Source of the DNA: a virus
Length of the DNA stretch: 31,503 nucleotides
Virus record (IMG/VR): IMGVR_UViG_3300032331_000622
Location: 1 to 31,503 of that record
Reading direction: 5' to 3' (one strand)
Shown: positions 4,473 through 28,550 of the stretch, piece by piece
How positions within the stretch are numbered: position 1 is the stretch's first letter
How the letters are laid out: each line of letters opens with the position of its first letter
The notes under the pieces: generated by a model
What the model was told of the DNA's origin: nothing
Seen by the model: the letters and a program-made list of their open reading frames with translations, nothing else
Database searches by the model: none
Translations under genes and position numbers: made by a program

Positions 4473-5315
4473 ATGGCAACTCTCTCTTCCTACCTCACGG
4501 AAGTGCAGCGACTCTTGCATGATGCAAACGCTGTCTTCTGGTCTACCTCGGAATTAACGGACTACATCAATGATGCCCGTGAACGAGTAGTAAGAGATAC
4601 TGGCTGTTTACGAACCCTACAAATTACTAGTACGCCACTCTCCAGCACTGGAGTAGTTGCAATCCCTTGGTCTAACGGCCTAGCTGTCACTGCAGGACAG
4701 TTTATTTTCTCAAATGTGTTCATCTACCAAGTCATTACAAGTGGCACATTGAACACGGACGCATCGCCTTACCCTTCTTCTGGTAGCGCATTCCCTCCGT
4801 CAACAGTATTTACCAACGGCACAGCCACACTGCAATACTCTAGCAACGCTGAAGTTATCAGTCTTGCTGCTTTGCCTAACGGAATTCAAACGCTTGATGT
4901 ATTGAACGTCACCCTGTATTGGGGTAATAGCCGGATTCCACTACGTTATTTGCCTTGGAGTAACTTTAACGCTCAGCTGCGTTATTGGCAAAACTACGTA
5001 GGCAGACCCATTTGCTTCTCTTCATACGGTCAAGGCCAGCTGTACATAGCGCCTGTGCCTGACCAGTCTTATTCTATTGAAGTAGATACGGTCATCTTGC
5101 CTACAGCATTAAGCACCAACACGCCCAATGCGGTAGACGTTATTGTTGACCCCTACACCACGCCCGTTGCTTTCTACGCTGCTTACAAAGCCAAGTACAA
5201 AGAGCAGAGCTATGGTGAGGCAGAAATCTATAAACAAGAATACGCTAAGCAAGTGCAAGCCGTTCTTAATTCGGTTTACACCCGCCGTATCCCCGACCCC
5301 TATTCATCCTTCTAA
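4473..5315 (+). CDS. Head-tail adaptor / tail tubular A-like protein (280 aa)
   Basis: The N-terminus (SYLTEVQRLLHDANAVFWST, then ELTDYINDARERVVRDTGC) is the typical opening of podovirus adaptor proteins: a helix, a turn with W, and a second helix. The middle is beta-rich, and the C-terminal helix (FYAAYKAKYKEQSYGEAEIY) resembles the adaptor family that docks on the portal ring. Length is between T7 gp11 (about 196 aa) and larger aquatic-phage homologues. The next gene encodes the nozzle, the normal partner, in the standard order. Start chosen at 4473 because it gives the conserved N-terminus; the RBS is weak. Confidence 0.7.
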   Translation: MATLSSYLTEVQRLLHDANAVFWSTSELTDYINDARERVVRDTGCLRTLQITSTPLSSTGVVAIPWSNGLAVTAGQFIFSNVFIYQVITSGTLNTDASPYPSSGSAFPPSTVFTNGTATLQYSSNAEVISLAALPNGIQTLDVLNVTLYWGNSRIPLRYLPWSNFNAQLRYWQNYVGRPICFSSYGQGQLYIAPVPDQSYSIEVDTVILPTALSTNTPNAVDVIVDPYTTPVAFYAAYKAKYKEQSYGEAEIYKQEYAKQVQAVLNSVYTRRIPDPYSSF

Positions 5316-24327: not shown

Positions 24328-25227
24328 TTAACCTTTCACCAAGAATCGGCGTGAGCCGGGGGTTTCTACTTCAAACTGCTTGTAAATGTCAGGCATGGCT
24401 TGTTGAAAGAGTGTGCTGCTGAACCTGTTACTGGATTTAGCGTTCTTCCACGTGGCGAGGACTTTCCCATCTACTGCAGTCAGCAGGGCTTTGTCTTGCA
24501 TGTAACCTTGGATAAGGGTCTGGTAAGCGTCTTCACGCTCTTCTAGCGCCTTTATTTCCCCTTTAATGAGGGCTAGGGTGCGGCAAGCATCTTCTACTGC
24601 TTGTGAGGCTGTTTTTGAATTGCCATCATCATGCTTGTACATGACCTTTGCTTGGTCAGTATTCTCGGGCGGCATGGGTTGTCTTGTCTGAACACGTGCC
24701 CAGTACTGAGCCATGTCAGTAATCAGCATGGTTTTATCTATTTCTTTAATTTCAAAAGGAATGAGGACAAACTCCTGACCACCAAAAAGGACAGCCAGAT
24801 AAATCTTGTCCACACCAAAGACCGCTGCTTCGTGGACGAGCTGAGCGTAATCCGCAACAGGTATATTTCCAGTCTCAGCATCAAACTTATTGCGGACACC
24901 AGCGTTATAGTTCTTACATTCCACGAGGATTGTTTTGCCATTCTCAGTTCCTGCAAAGTCAAAGTGAGACTTGAGCCATGTTTCTTTCTTGTGGGTTAGA
25001 GCCTCTTCTACCTTGTGTAGCTCAACCTTGAGTTTGTCTTGAGCCAGTCTTCCGATGACAGGTTCAAGAACGTGCCCCATCTGTACAGCTTCTATGCCGG
25101 ACAAGTCGGGTATGTCCATCATGCCCAGTTTGGTGAGGATGACTTCGTTGGCCTTACCGTTGGCAGCCTTGCGACTATCGCCTGACCACCAAGCAGAGTT
25201 ACGGGTTTGTGGGGAGAAATCAGACAT
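24328..25227 (-). CDS. YqaJ/lambda-exo-type viral recombination exonuclease (299 aa)
   Basis: Start ATG 25227 is chosen because GGAAAG sits just upstream and the family N-terminus follows (QTRNSAWWSGDSRKAANGKA, residues 7-26); a longer frame to 25311 lacks an RBS. Motifs of the PD-(D/E)XK exonuclease family are present: GHVLEPV (E55), SHFDFAG (D90) and ILVECKNYN with E103 and K105. It should degrade dsDNA 5'-3' to leave ssDNA for the RecT-like partner encoded next. The C-terminal segment is helical. Conserved W and R at the start match the YqaJ family (PF09588). Confidence 0.75.
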   Translation of the reverse strand: MSDFSPQTRNSAWWSGDSRKAANGKANEVILTKLGMMDIPDLSGIEAVQMGHVLEPVIGRLAQDKLKVELHKVEEALTHKKETWLKSHFDFAGTENGKTILVECKNYNAGVRNKFDAETGNIPVADYAQLVHEAAVFGVDKIYLAVLFGGQEFVLIPFEIKEIDKTMLITDMAQYWARVQTRQPMPPENTDQAKVMYKHDDGNSKTASQAVEDACRTLALIKGEIKALEEREDAYQTLIQGYMQDKALLTAVDGKVLATWKNAKSSNRFSSTLFQQAMPDIYKQFEVETPGSRRFLVKG

Positions 25228-25441
25228 GGTTACTTTCCTTTTCTGTAAAGAGAAGCGCAGCAAGGCCGCACTCTTTGTTGTGGGGCATACGCATAACGCT
25301 GCACCATTCAAGTTGGTCTATGGGGGTTGGTTTCCCGTCTACGGGAGAGATGACAGAGAGAGCTGTGCATTTTGCTAAATGCGTCTTCTCTTTTTCTGTG
25401 CCTACCAAATGGTAATGCTTGCAGTTGATACACAGTTTCAT
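25220..25441 (-). CDS. Small Cys-containing putative zinc-binding protein (73 aa)
   Basis: The N-terminus KLCINCKHY has a CxxC (C4, C7). A further C25 and C47 or C58 could complete a zinc site. The remainder is polar. Proteins beginning with CxNCxxY-like blocks are frequent in early phage regions and are of unknown role. It is the first gene after promoter 25471-25521, and its end overlaps the exonuclease start by eight bases. RBS AAGG is about eleven bases from ATG, so efficiency may be low. Confidence 0.6.
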   Translation of the reverse strand: MKLCINCKHYHLVGTEKEKTHLAKCTALSVISPVDGKPTPIDQLEWCSVMRMPHNKECGLAALLFTEKESNHV

Positions 25442-25951: not shown

Positions 25952-25982
25952 TGTGGGTAAGTTATCCACAGTGTTATCCACA
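25952..25982. other. DnaA-box cluster, possible replication origin
   Basis: Two perfect TTATCCACA boxes are at 25962-25970 and 25974-25982, only three bases apart. An inverted near-match TTACCCACA (- strand of 25952-25960) precedes them. This matches the binding site of host initiator DnaA. With no polymerase or helicase gene in the window, a DnaA-dependent origin or DnaA-controlled promoter is plausible. No strongly AT-rich unwinding segment is obvious next to it. Confidence 0.55.
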
Positions 25983-26046
25983 GGGATAGAAGCTCTCGTT
26001 TATCTAGGCTATTCAACGCAAGTGCAGCACTCTTGTTAAACCCGAC

Positions 26047-26157
26047 TTATCTCTCACCCGAAAGATGCTCACTTAGGGATGACAAGGCCAGTTCGCCACG
26101 TTTATCGTACTTGGTCGCTTCAACCGCATACAGGGGCGGGTGATACCCCCGTGTCAA
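26047..26157 (-). CDS. Doubtful short ORF (36 aa, TTG start)
   Basis: Reading from TTG 26157, the frame gives LTRGYHPPLYAVEATKYDKR and ends HLSGER, with protein-like codon choice, but there is no ATG and no RBS. The frame continues past its TAA with another open stretch through the DnaA boxes to 25919, which contains no normal start. It could be a decayed gene remnant in the control region. Otherwise 25902-26168 appears non-coding apart from the DnaA boxes. Confidence 0.2.
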   Translation of the reverse strand: MTRGYHPPLYAVEATKYDKRGELALSSLSEHLSGER

Positions 26158-26168
26158 GCAAGAAACAA

Positions 26169-26270
26169 TAAAAAAAGCCGCTTACAACTGCCCTCGGTGA
26201 GAACCCTTAAGTTATGACCAAGGGCGAGAGCATGTGTAAACGGCTTCAATAAATTGCTTCTCACGGCAAC
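26169..26270 (-). ncRNA. Putative free-standing structured RNA (about 100 nt) with intrinsic terminator
   Basis: On the - strand, a 12-bp outer stem (26246-26235 with 26186-26175, AAGCCGTTTACA / TGTAAGCGGCTT) encloses a 9-bp inner stem (26225-26217 with 26198-26190, GCCCTTGGT / ACCGAGGGC) and an 18-base loop. The run of T encoded by A 26170-26176 follows immediately. The single imperfect pair in each stem is U-G only when read on the - strand, which supports that strand. The leader GTGAGAA (26264-26258) is complementary to loop bases TTCTCAC (26203-26197), allowing a pseudoknot. A promoter lies at 26277-26307. Family unknown. Confidence 0.6.
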
Positions 26271-26276
26271 AGCCCG

Positions 26277-26307
26277 TTTATATCACGGGCGTATAGGGGT
26301 TTGTCAA
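26277..26307 (-). promoter_or_regulatory. Promoter of the structured RNA, with dyad
   Basis: TTGACA (26307-26302) and TATAAA (26282-26277) on the - strand, 19-base spacer. The -10 is flanked by perfect arms GCCCGT (26272-26277) and ACGGGC (26285-26290), an operator-like dyad. The -35 overlaps the stop codon of the 26304-26507 gene. Start of transcription expected near 26270. Confidence 0.55.
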
Positions 26308-26507
26308 GACATTAGAATTTTTGGGGCTTCTTGTGTCAGATTAGCAACAATCATTTCTGCCATCGTTTTGCAGTCTTCTATCTCCTCCGGCTTGAGTAGG
26401 GTAGTCAGAGGGTAAACAAGGTCTGTCATGCACTTGGCATGTTGTTCCTCATCTGGTGCAGTTATTGCCAACACTAGAGCGTTGACCATTAGCAAATCGG
26501 GTTTCAT
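26304..26507 (-). CDS. Small hypothetical helical protein (67 aa)
   Basis: ATG 26507 has AAGGA five bases upstream (in the preceding gene's end); the longer frame to 26582 overlaps that gene and lacks an RBS. The product is helical and acidic with several Met and Leu (KPDLLMVNALVLAITAPDEE, then LVYPLTTLLKPEEIEDCKTM) and two Cys. No family recognised. Its stop codon lies in the -35 of the ncRNA promoter. Confidence 0.55.
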   Translation of the reverse strand: MKPDLLMVNALVLAITAPDEEQHAKCMTDLVYPLTTLLKPEEIEDCKTMAEMIVANLTQEAPKILMS

Positions 26508-26515
26508 GTTTGTCC

Positions 26516-26656
26516 TTAAAGAGTCATTACAAGATAGCAAACAACATAGCCAGCAAACCATGCCAGACAAATGTTGAACCAACCCTCATCTGGGGGCGTA
26601 TATGGGCCTTCTAACAAGGGCGGCATGTGTGGGCGTATAGGGGTTTTTGTAGTCAT
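26516..26656 (-). CDS. Small membrane protein (46 aa)
   Basis: ATG 26656 has AAAGG upstream. The first ~25 residues are Pro-rich and polar (KTPIRPHMPPLLEGPYTPPD), and the rest is one hydrophobic helix (WFNICLAWFAGYVVCYLVMT) that should cross the inner membrane. Early phage microproteins of this sort may block host functions or superinfection, which is speculation. The beginning contains a 16-bp sequence repeated in the ncRNA promoter spacer. Confidence 0.55.
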   Translation of the reverse strand: MTTKTPIRPHMPPLLEGPYTPPDEGWFNICLAWFAGYVVCYLVMTL

Positions 26657-27692: not shown

Positions 27693-28550
27693 TCACGCCG
27701 CTATAGCTTCGGCGGTAGCATCTAACCCGTTGAGATAATCGGCGGCCTTTTGAGCTAGGGCGGCGGCCTTGAATACGGCCTTAGAATCATCCCGTAAAGC
27801 CTTGAGCCAAGATTGAATGTATCCGGCGTGACGTAGTTCGCCCTGAATACCGTAGTCTTGGCATAAGAACGCCGCACCCATTTCCGCTACTAACTCTTCA
27901 AAAGCGTATGCTGGGTTACCGAAACGGCCTTTATCAAGGTTACGGTCTAACCTATGCTTCGCACCAGTCCAATGCACTAACTCATGGAAGGCCGTAGCGT
28001 AATAGTTCGCTTCACTGTTAAAAGTTCCCTTATTAGGTAATTGGATACGGTCAACACTGGGAGCATAAAATGCCGCATCGCCGCCGTGTGTTAAGGCCGC
28101 ACCAGTTTTCACGATTCTAGTTTCTGCGTACTCTATAGGGGTGAACGGTTTGTCAACGGTAGCGGCGGGAACTATATCAATGCCGTCAATTTGTGAAGCA
28201 TTGAAAACCCAGTAGGCCTTGAGTACAGAATAAGACTCTGTATCGCCGGTAGTCTTATTTTCTTTGCTAACCTTAGAAAAGAAAACAATCCTAGTGCCCT
28301 TTTCACCCTTGCGAACATTGCCGCCGATACTCTCCCATTGTTTGTAGCTTGCCCATACTGGAACATCGTACCTATTGACCATGCCGGATAGACCTAAGAT
28401 TAGTCTATTGATACCCTGATACGGTTTTTGTGAGAGTAGGTTTTTATCGGCGCTACTATCGGCCTTCCAAGGTTTAACCCACGGTATAGCGCCGTTTTCT
28501 AATTGTTCAATGATGCTATTTGTAACATCTTGATAGACTGTATTTGACAT
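27693..28550 (-). CDS. ArdC-like antirestriction protein (ssDNA-binding + metallopeptidase domain) (285 aa)
   Basis: The N-terminal ArdC domain is clear: DVTNSIIEQLENGAIPWVKP (8-27) W-kPW pattern, PYQGINRLILGL (43-54), ASYKQWESIGGNVRKGEKGT (67-86) and VFFSK. The C-terminal half is a zincin: ATAFHELVHWTGAKHRL with H189-E190-x-x-H193 and the following FEELVAEMGAAFLC with a Glu as likely third zinc ligand. Similar proteins (PF08401 with the MPTase domain) protect incoming DNA from restriction. It is the first gene of the - strand transcription unit behind a consensus promoter, as expected for an early counter-defence gene. Ala codons favour GCC/GCG/GCT, unlike neighbours. Confidence 0.85.
   Translation of the reverse strand: MSNTVYQDVTNSIIEQLENGAIPWVKPWKADSSADKNLLSQKPYQGINRLILGLSGMVNRYDVPVWASYKQWESIGGNVRKGEKGTRIVFFSKVSKENKTTGDTESYSVLKAYWVFNASQIDGIDIVPAATVDKPFTPIEYAETRIVKTGAALTHGGDAAFYAPSVDRIQLPNKGTFNSEANYYATAFHELVHWTGAKHRLDRNLDKGRFGNPAYAFEELVAEMGAAFLCQDYGIQGELRHAGYIQSWLKALRDDSKAVFKAAALAQKAADYLNGLDATAEAIAA

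Follow-up and report, generated by a model that had tools for sequence, protein, structure and literature searches.

Locus and transcription unit

The window analyzed here, a 31,503-base IMG/VR contig taken at its full length, carries a small-RNA unit on its minus strand. The unit is flanked by leftward ORFs, including those encoding a RecE-like exonuclease (24328-25311) and a RecT-like protein, and the window phage has an ordinary large terminase with a Terminase_6C domain. An initial annotation had placed the unit between two early operons; we find leftward ORFs on both sides of it, forming one leftward block in which two operons are not clear. The annotation had also described DnaA boxes adjoining the unit. 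Two boxes are indeed present at 25962-25982, but at least two strict boxes within 800 nt downstream were found in just 5 of 145 homologous loci. Farther upstream of the small RNA, positions 27693-28550 (minus strand) encode an ArdC-type protein with an MPTase-PolyVal domain, for which an anti-restriction role is likely.

Upstream of the predicted RNA, the minus strand carries a -35 element TTGACA (26302-26307) and, after a 19-nt spacer, an extended -10 element TATAAA (TGaTATAAA; the hexamer is at 26277-26282), confirming both elements of the promoter described in the initial annotation. The -35 assignment is based on the sequence and on the best -35/-10 placement in homologues. In 99 of 110 distinct upstream homologue sequences, this best placement puts the end of the -10 element 6-7 nt before P1, the first hairpin of the fold. 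On this positional evidence, the predicted start is the first base of P1 or a neighboring one, and probably that first base itself. The T-tract (26170-26176) lies at the 3' base of the outer stem, as had been proposed; its first two T residues pair in helix P2, and it is conserved in the family. With the start taken from the promoter and the end from the T-tract, the predicted transcript is approximately 101 nt in length (26170-26270). By its sequence, the promoter is sigma-70-like and set at a fixed distance from the fold, and the terminator is of the intrinsic type. A 26-nt direct repeat (26287-26312 and 26631-26656, 85% identity, GGGCGTATAGGGGTTT...) overlaps the promoter region with its first copy. 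Close relatives also conserve a stretch downstream of the terminator, at 26000-26140 (minus strand, GGTTGAAGCGACCAAGTACGATAAA), of which one frame is coding-like in the window and interrupted by a stop in locus L013.

Homologues of the small RNA

Relatives of the exonuclease gave 80 viral loci, and the RNA unit was found in 39 of these 80 RecE loci, so that some close relatives lack it, although many of the loci are cut short. BLASTN likewise detected the unit in many exonuclease-relative loci, and in several of them conservation forms an island bounded by the predicted transcript ends. Using a degenerate search pattern that consists of P2, the internal loop and the terminator only, we found homologues in at least 119 viral contigs. 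Nearly all of these matches also carry P1 and the pseudoknot, neither of which is part of the pattern. A scan for P2 variants added 53 contigs, 52 of which have the pseudoknot pairing, while 18 of 51 matches to a pattern made from P1 alone show both the pairing and a terminator. These two scans yielded diverged subtypes with other P2 and P3 sequences and an unchanged layout. Two relatives from Manatee Spring, L201 and L202, have no match to the covariance model described below.

A structure descriptor that demanded P1, an exact pseudoknot of 7 nt, and P2 together with its T-tract matched 153 loci in 1.82 Mb of sequence and none in 1.82 Mb of dinucleotide-shuffled sequence; since most of the matching loci had been preselected as family matches, it is the shuffled side of the comparison that carries the information. 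Chance is therefore excluded as an explanation. No conserved ORF was seen in the units by inspection without a formal coding-potential score. The unit thus has the general features of a phage small RNA: its own promoter and terminator, no conserved ORF seen, and a location in a phage. On comparative sequence evidence we consider it near certain that this is a real small-RNA gene.

Secondary structure and covariation

To compare the homologues, a first MAFFT alignment was used to build a covariance model (R1) that does not include the pseudoknot, and 100 homologues were aligned with this model to give alignment A3. Because A3 is fitted to the nested helices, counts for those helices lean toward the model, and counts for the pseudoknot are free of this bias. 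The model matches the window at 26171-26270 with a cmsearch score of 93.9 bits, the window copy being among the sequences from which it was made.

The family fold comprises hairpin P1, a P2-P3 helix with an internal loop, and hairpin P4; in addition, the P1 loop pairs over 7 bp with the strand joining P4 to P3, forming a pseudoknot. In the window, all of these elements are on the minus strand. P1 (26253-26270) is a 5-bp hairpin, GTTGC/GCAAT, with an 8-nt loop, CGTGAGAA, that contains the 5' strand of the pseudoknot, GTGAGAA (26258-26264). The linker J1/2 (26247-26252) is A-rich across the family, comprising 6-12 nt before a GCC with 53% A among 129 distinct units. The arms of P2 are AAGCCGTTTACA (26235-26246) and TGTAAGCGGCTT (26175-26186), assigned from paired-cell counts in A3. 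Those of P3 are TGCTCTCG (26225-26232) and CGAGGGCA (26189-26196), assigned from the family comparison together with these counts. P4 (26204-26224) is a hairpin, CCCTT...AAGGG, whose loop varies in the family, and it is followed in junction J4/3 by the 3' strand of the pseudoknot, TTCTCAC (26197-26203), identified from pair counts and changes on a tree. The combined length of P2 and P3 is nearly fixed, at 20-21 in 99 of 129 units. Among distinct units, linker length shows no correlation with helix length, where tabulated helix lengths of 26-27 look like mis-parses.

The outer stem of 12 bp in the initial annotation corresponds to P2, with one U-G pair. Its 9-bp inner stem, GCCCTTGGT/ACCGAGGGC, did not hold up: it is paired in 61.6% of cells across the 100 homologues, and P3 and P4 are conserved in its place. 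The switch between pseudoknot and inner stem that had been suggested is unsupported, since that inner stem is not conserved. The proposed pairing of GTGAGAA with TTCTCAC is an exact complement and proves to be a covarying 7-bp pseudoknot, although what had been taken for a leader is the P1 hairpin with its 8-nt loop. Selection on the minus-strand RNA, also part of the initial annotation, is borne out by the nested helices of the family, which contain 281 G-U cells versus 33 A-C or C-A cells. Folding energies are -41.5 kcal/mol for the minus strand (z = -5.0 versus shuffles) and -30.1 kcal/mol for the plus strand (z = -3.3).

Across A3 the whole structure has 95.9% of its cells paired and 491 double-change cells, and 0 of 500 shuffles was as good. 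Paired cells amount to 98.6% in P1, 98.4% in the P2-P3 helix, 77.6% in P4, where the alignment register is uncertain, and 100% in the pseudoknot. Covariation is thus seen in every helix, and the fate of the stems in relatives, where disruption would have spoken against a small RNA, favors one. RNAalifold, which does not predict pseudoknots, independently recovers P1, P2 and most of P3 from A3. Unpaired columns are weakly conserved, including the linker and the P4 loop; the internal loop is the exception.

The pseudoknot is the most strictly paired element. All 699 of its 699 cells in A3 are Watson-Crick pairs with no G-U, in comparison with G-U shares of 4.9-14.4% in the other helices (13-14% in P1 and P3), and six of its seven pairs show double changes. 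Its covariation score is 0.711, versus 0.155 when shuffled and at most 0.20 when slid. On a tree made without the pseudoknot columns, parsimony gives approximately 90 state changes in its pairs, each from one Watson-Crick pair to another. This corresponds to a turnover of approximately 13 pair-state steps per pair, never through a G-U or a mismatch in the 100 aligned homologues. Loci L083 and L143 differ in A3 solely by one compensated A-U/U-A pair, which lies within the pseudoknot. Among the exceptions to perfect pairing, locus L147 has one mismatch.

Relationship to known RNAs

We searched Rfam 15, as the initial annotation had recommended. The window has no match at the gathering threshold, the unit has none at E values up to 5, and the units of ten further loci have none at E values up to 1. 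The RNA was also not found in 50,697 isolate phages by DNA similarity, and the family consensus gave no match there; short matches between the window and isolate phages lie on the DnaA-box stretch or otherwise outside the structure of the unit. Two plasmid matches were set aside as 26-nt partial matches. We found no prior description in the literature searched, a scope that leaves subscription journals and most preprints aside. The large family, the promoter at a fixed distance, the covariation and the absence of an Rfam 15 match together strongly support the initial suggestion that this is a small phage RNA, so far undescribed, that has a pseudoknot and a promoter of its own, although an earlier description may exist outside the searched literature.

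The phi29 pRNA is a small phage RNA whose loops are held together through complementarity and not through sequence. The RNA described here is likewise a small phage RNA, but its layout differs, it has no Rfam match at gathering, and the window phage has a large terminase of the Terminase_6C type. A search for a gp16-type packaging ATPase (PF05894) gave no match in 12 carrier contigs and none in the control genomes either. Lambda PreS (approximately 88 nt) and VP882 VpdS are trans-acting phage small RNAs that base pair by way of Hfq (PMC12197685); they resemble the new RNA in being small and phage-encoded, and the new RNA differs from them in lacking a conserved seed and in having a pseudoknot that covaries. 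That review of phage small RNAs nowhere uses the word "pseudoknot". The Racrs are small noncoding RNAs, encoded in viral genomes, that counter a host protein complex and mimic CRISPR repeats (PMC10651486). Both they and the new RNA are small viral noncoding RNAs, but no CRISPR repeat family in Rfam matched the unit.

Carriers and likely host

We clustered the proteins of 11 long carrier contigs together with those of the window, judging protein sharing at BLAST sensitivity; the carrier contigs are possibly fragments, and three of them (G003, G004 and G005) were covered to 60,000 of approximately 62,000 bases. The window has 26-27 protein families in common with G007 and G008, and each of the other nine carriers shares 0-3 with it. 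No protein family is common to all 12, the widest occurring in 7 of the 12, and BLAST finds no significant similarity between the large terminase of the window and the terminase-like proteins (cluster 22) that lie beside other copies of the RNA. Given this low protein sharing, the RNA sits in several unrelated gene backgrounds. Its neighbors vary by locus and include single-strand annealing proteins (SSAPs; ERF, Sak), a PD-(D/E)XK nuclease, RusA and a P22-Cro-like protein. The downstream gene differs in identity between loci, with 91 of 135 such genes on the same strand and the other 44 on the opposite one. What appeared to be the commonest downstream protein cluster (cluster 0) was discarded, being in part a translation of the RNA itself. 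In one terminase-like ORF, of 940 aa at oriented position 4749 of locus L156, a long insert (ANCLAGDTELLVM...HNC) looks intein-like by eye.

With the degenerate pattern used for the viral contigs, 84,980 genomes yielded two matching contigs, both from betaproteobacterial MAGs. When 401 and 399 genomes were sampled from the family and the order of these MAGs, the two starting MAGs were again the sole matches, so the RNA is not commonly found in chromosomes or prophages. With regard to lysogeny, Phage_integrase has no match in the 12 carriers, which does not in itself prove its absence. Locus L134 carries a second structured RNA: RF02932 (Betaproteobacteria-1 RNA) is found at 1155-1277 on the plus strand with 92.8 bits, and the new RNA, at 692-791, precedes it by approximately 360 nt. 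RF02932 is a structured RNA of approximately 120 nt with three hairpins, occupies a separate locus, and has no match to the new RNA. The two MAG contigs and the RF02932 match in one carrier suggest that the host is probably betaproteobacterial, and sample names read as a freshwater setting.

Possible function

We propose, with a probability of about 0.6, that this is a stand-alone early RNA that acts in trans, is read by its shape, and has a host component as its target. The fold, the promoter and the terminator come from comparison of homologues, and the rest we infer. The fixed position of the promoter before P1 argues for a gene of its own, and early transcription by the host RNA polymerase would be expected because the neighbors are recombination- and replication-type genes. 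Since the 12 carriers have no universal protein family and the neighbors vary, the RNA would act in trans and be host-directed, and the lack of a common phage protein points to a host partner. Recognition through three-dimensional shape, and not through an antisense seed, is suggested by the weak conservation of unpaired positions apart from the internal loop, by diverged subfamilies that keep the fold with other P2 and P3 sequences, and by the pseudoknot 7-mers, for which their own genomes show no enrichment (mean z = -0.1; the G004 value is an artefact of a contig whose end was not covered). The target may be a conserved component of the host, itself probably betaproteobacterial; RNA polymerase, an RNA-binding protein, a nuclease and a defence protein are examples, and the RNA would occupy or inhibit it. 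Adenovirus VA-I RNA, a compact, pseudoknot-anchored, virus-encoded RNA that occupies a host protein (PMC6599070), offers a model for such action by analogy only, as its sequence, fold and host are unrelated. Antisense action or dependence on Hfq is common among the known phage small RNAs. Here, a compact pseudoknotted RNA is the only gene found to be common to several otherwise unrelated phages, and an RNA shared without a common phage protein partner would point to an RNA that serves as weapon or decoy against some conserved part of the host. With the alignment, the covariance model and the promoter rule, this proposal can be tested directly.

Other readings account for part of these data. 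A regulatory RNA of the Hfq or ProQ type, like lambda PreS, could use the linker, or a region that opens transiently, to pair with mRNAs of the host or the phage; the U-tailed terminator and trans-acting layout would suit it, and several catalogued phage small RNAs pair via Hfq (PMC12197685). We nevertheless think it unlikely, as a conserved unpaired seed is absent, the linker and P4 loop are weakly conserved, almost every member has its P1 loop paired, and the 7-mers are unenriched. Antisense control of replication, raised in the initial annotation, shares the lack of a conserved unpaired seed and is unsupported because proximity to DnaA boxes is not a family feature. As to mimicry of a host RNA, also raised there, no host counterpart was found in the 84,980 genomes. 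A CsrA-type decoy was rejected, GGA being present in some P1 loops only. That the unit is a cis-acting, attenuator- or riboswitch-like element controlling read-through into the downstream gene, as the terminator at its end and the same-strand neighbor in 91 of 135 loci might suggest, is highly improbable: a promoter immediately precedes the fold, the downstream gene belongs to no fixed family and is often on the opposite strand, and we noticed no conserved antiterminator pairing, the alternative stem of the initial annotation not being conserved. The 3' end does look like an intrinsic terminator, with a stem and T-tract, but a strong terminator with incidental extra pairing is contradicted by the covariation, by conservation of the promoter, P1, P3, P4 and the pseudoknot, and by the 153 descriptor loci against none in shuffled sequence, and its probability is negligible.

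The pseudoknot itself invites a different thought, namely that the loop of one molecule pairs with the junction of another, giving dimers or rings that serve in packaging or act as a scaffold. Its complementarity is perfect yet variable and free of G-U, and the phage-associated GOLLD and ROOL RNAs form homo-oligomers (PMC12286853). The near-fixed length of P2 plus P3 and the 6-12-nt linker fit an intramolecular dock by our own rough geometric estimate, and the terminase of the window phage is an ordinary one with a Terminase_6C domain, so that we hold self-assembly to be improbable. Returning to a shape-read, host-directed RNA, the strict Watson-Crick rule of its pseudoknot may result from contacts that the A-rich linker makes in the groove, or from selection on recognition. 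More speculatively, and with rather low expectation, the pseudoknot could be a fast-changing Watson-Crick pairing code under diversifying selection on RNA-RNA recognition, either through self-assembly that excludes the RNAs of co-infecting phages or through escape from a host factor that reads this strand. One locus, L285, combines a P1 loop GTGAGAA with a J4/3 strand TTTCCAC from two subtypes, giving one mismatch and one G-U; such a member could serve as a natural test of the pairing, unless it is a chimera produced by assembly.
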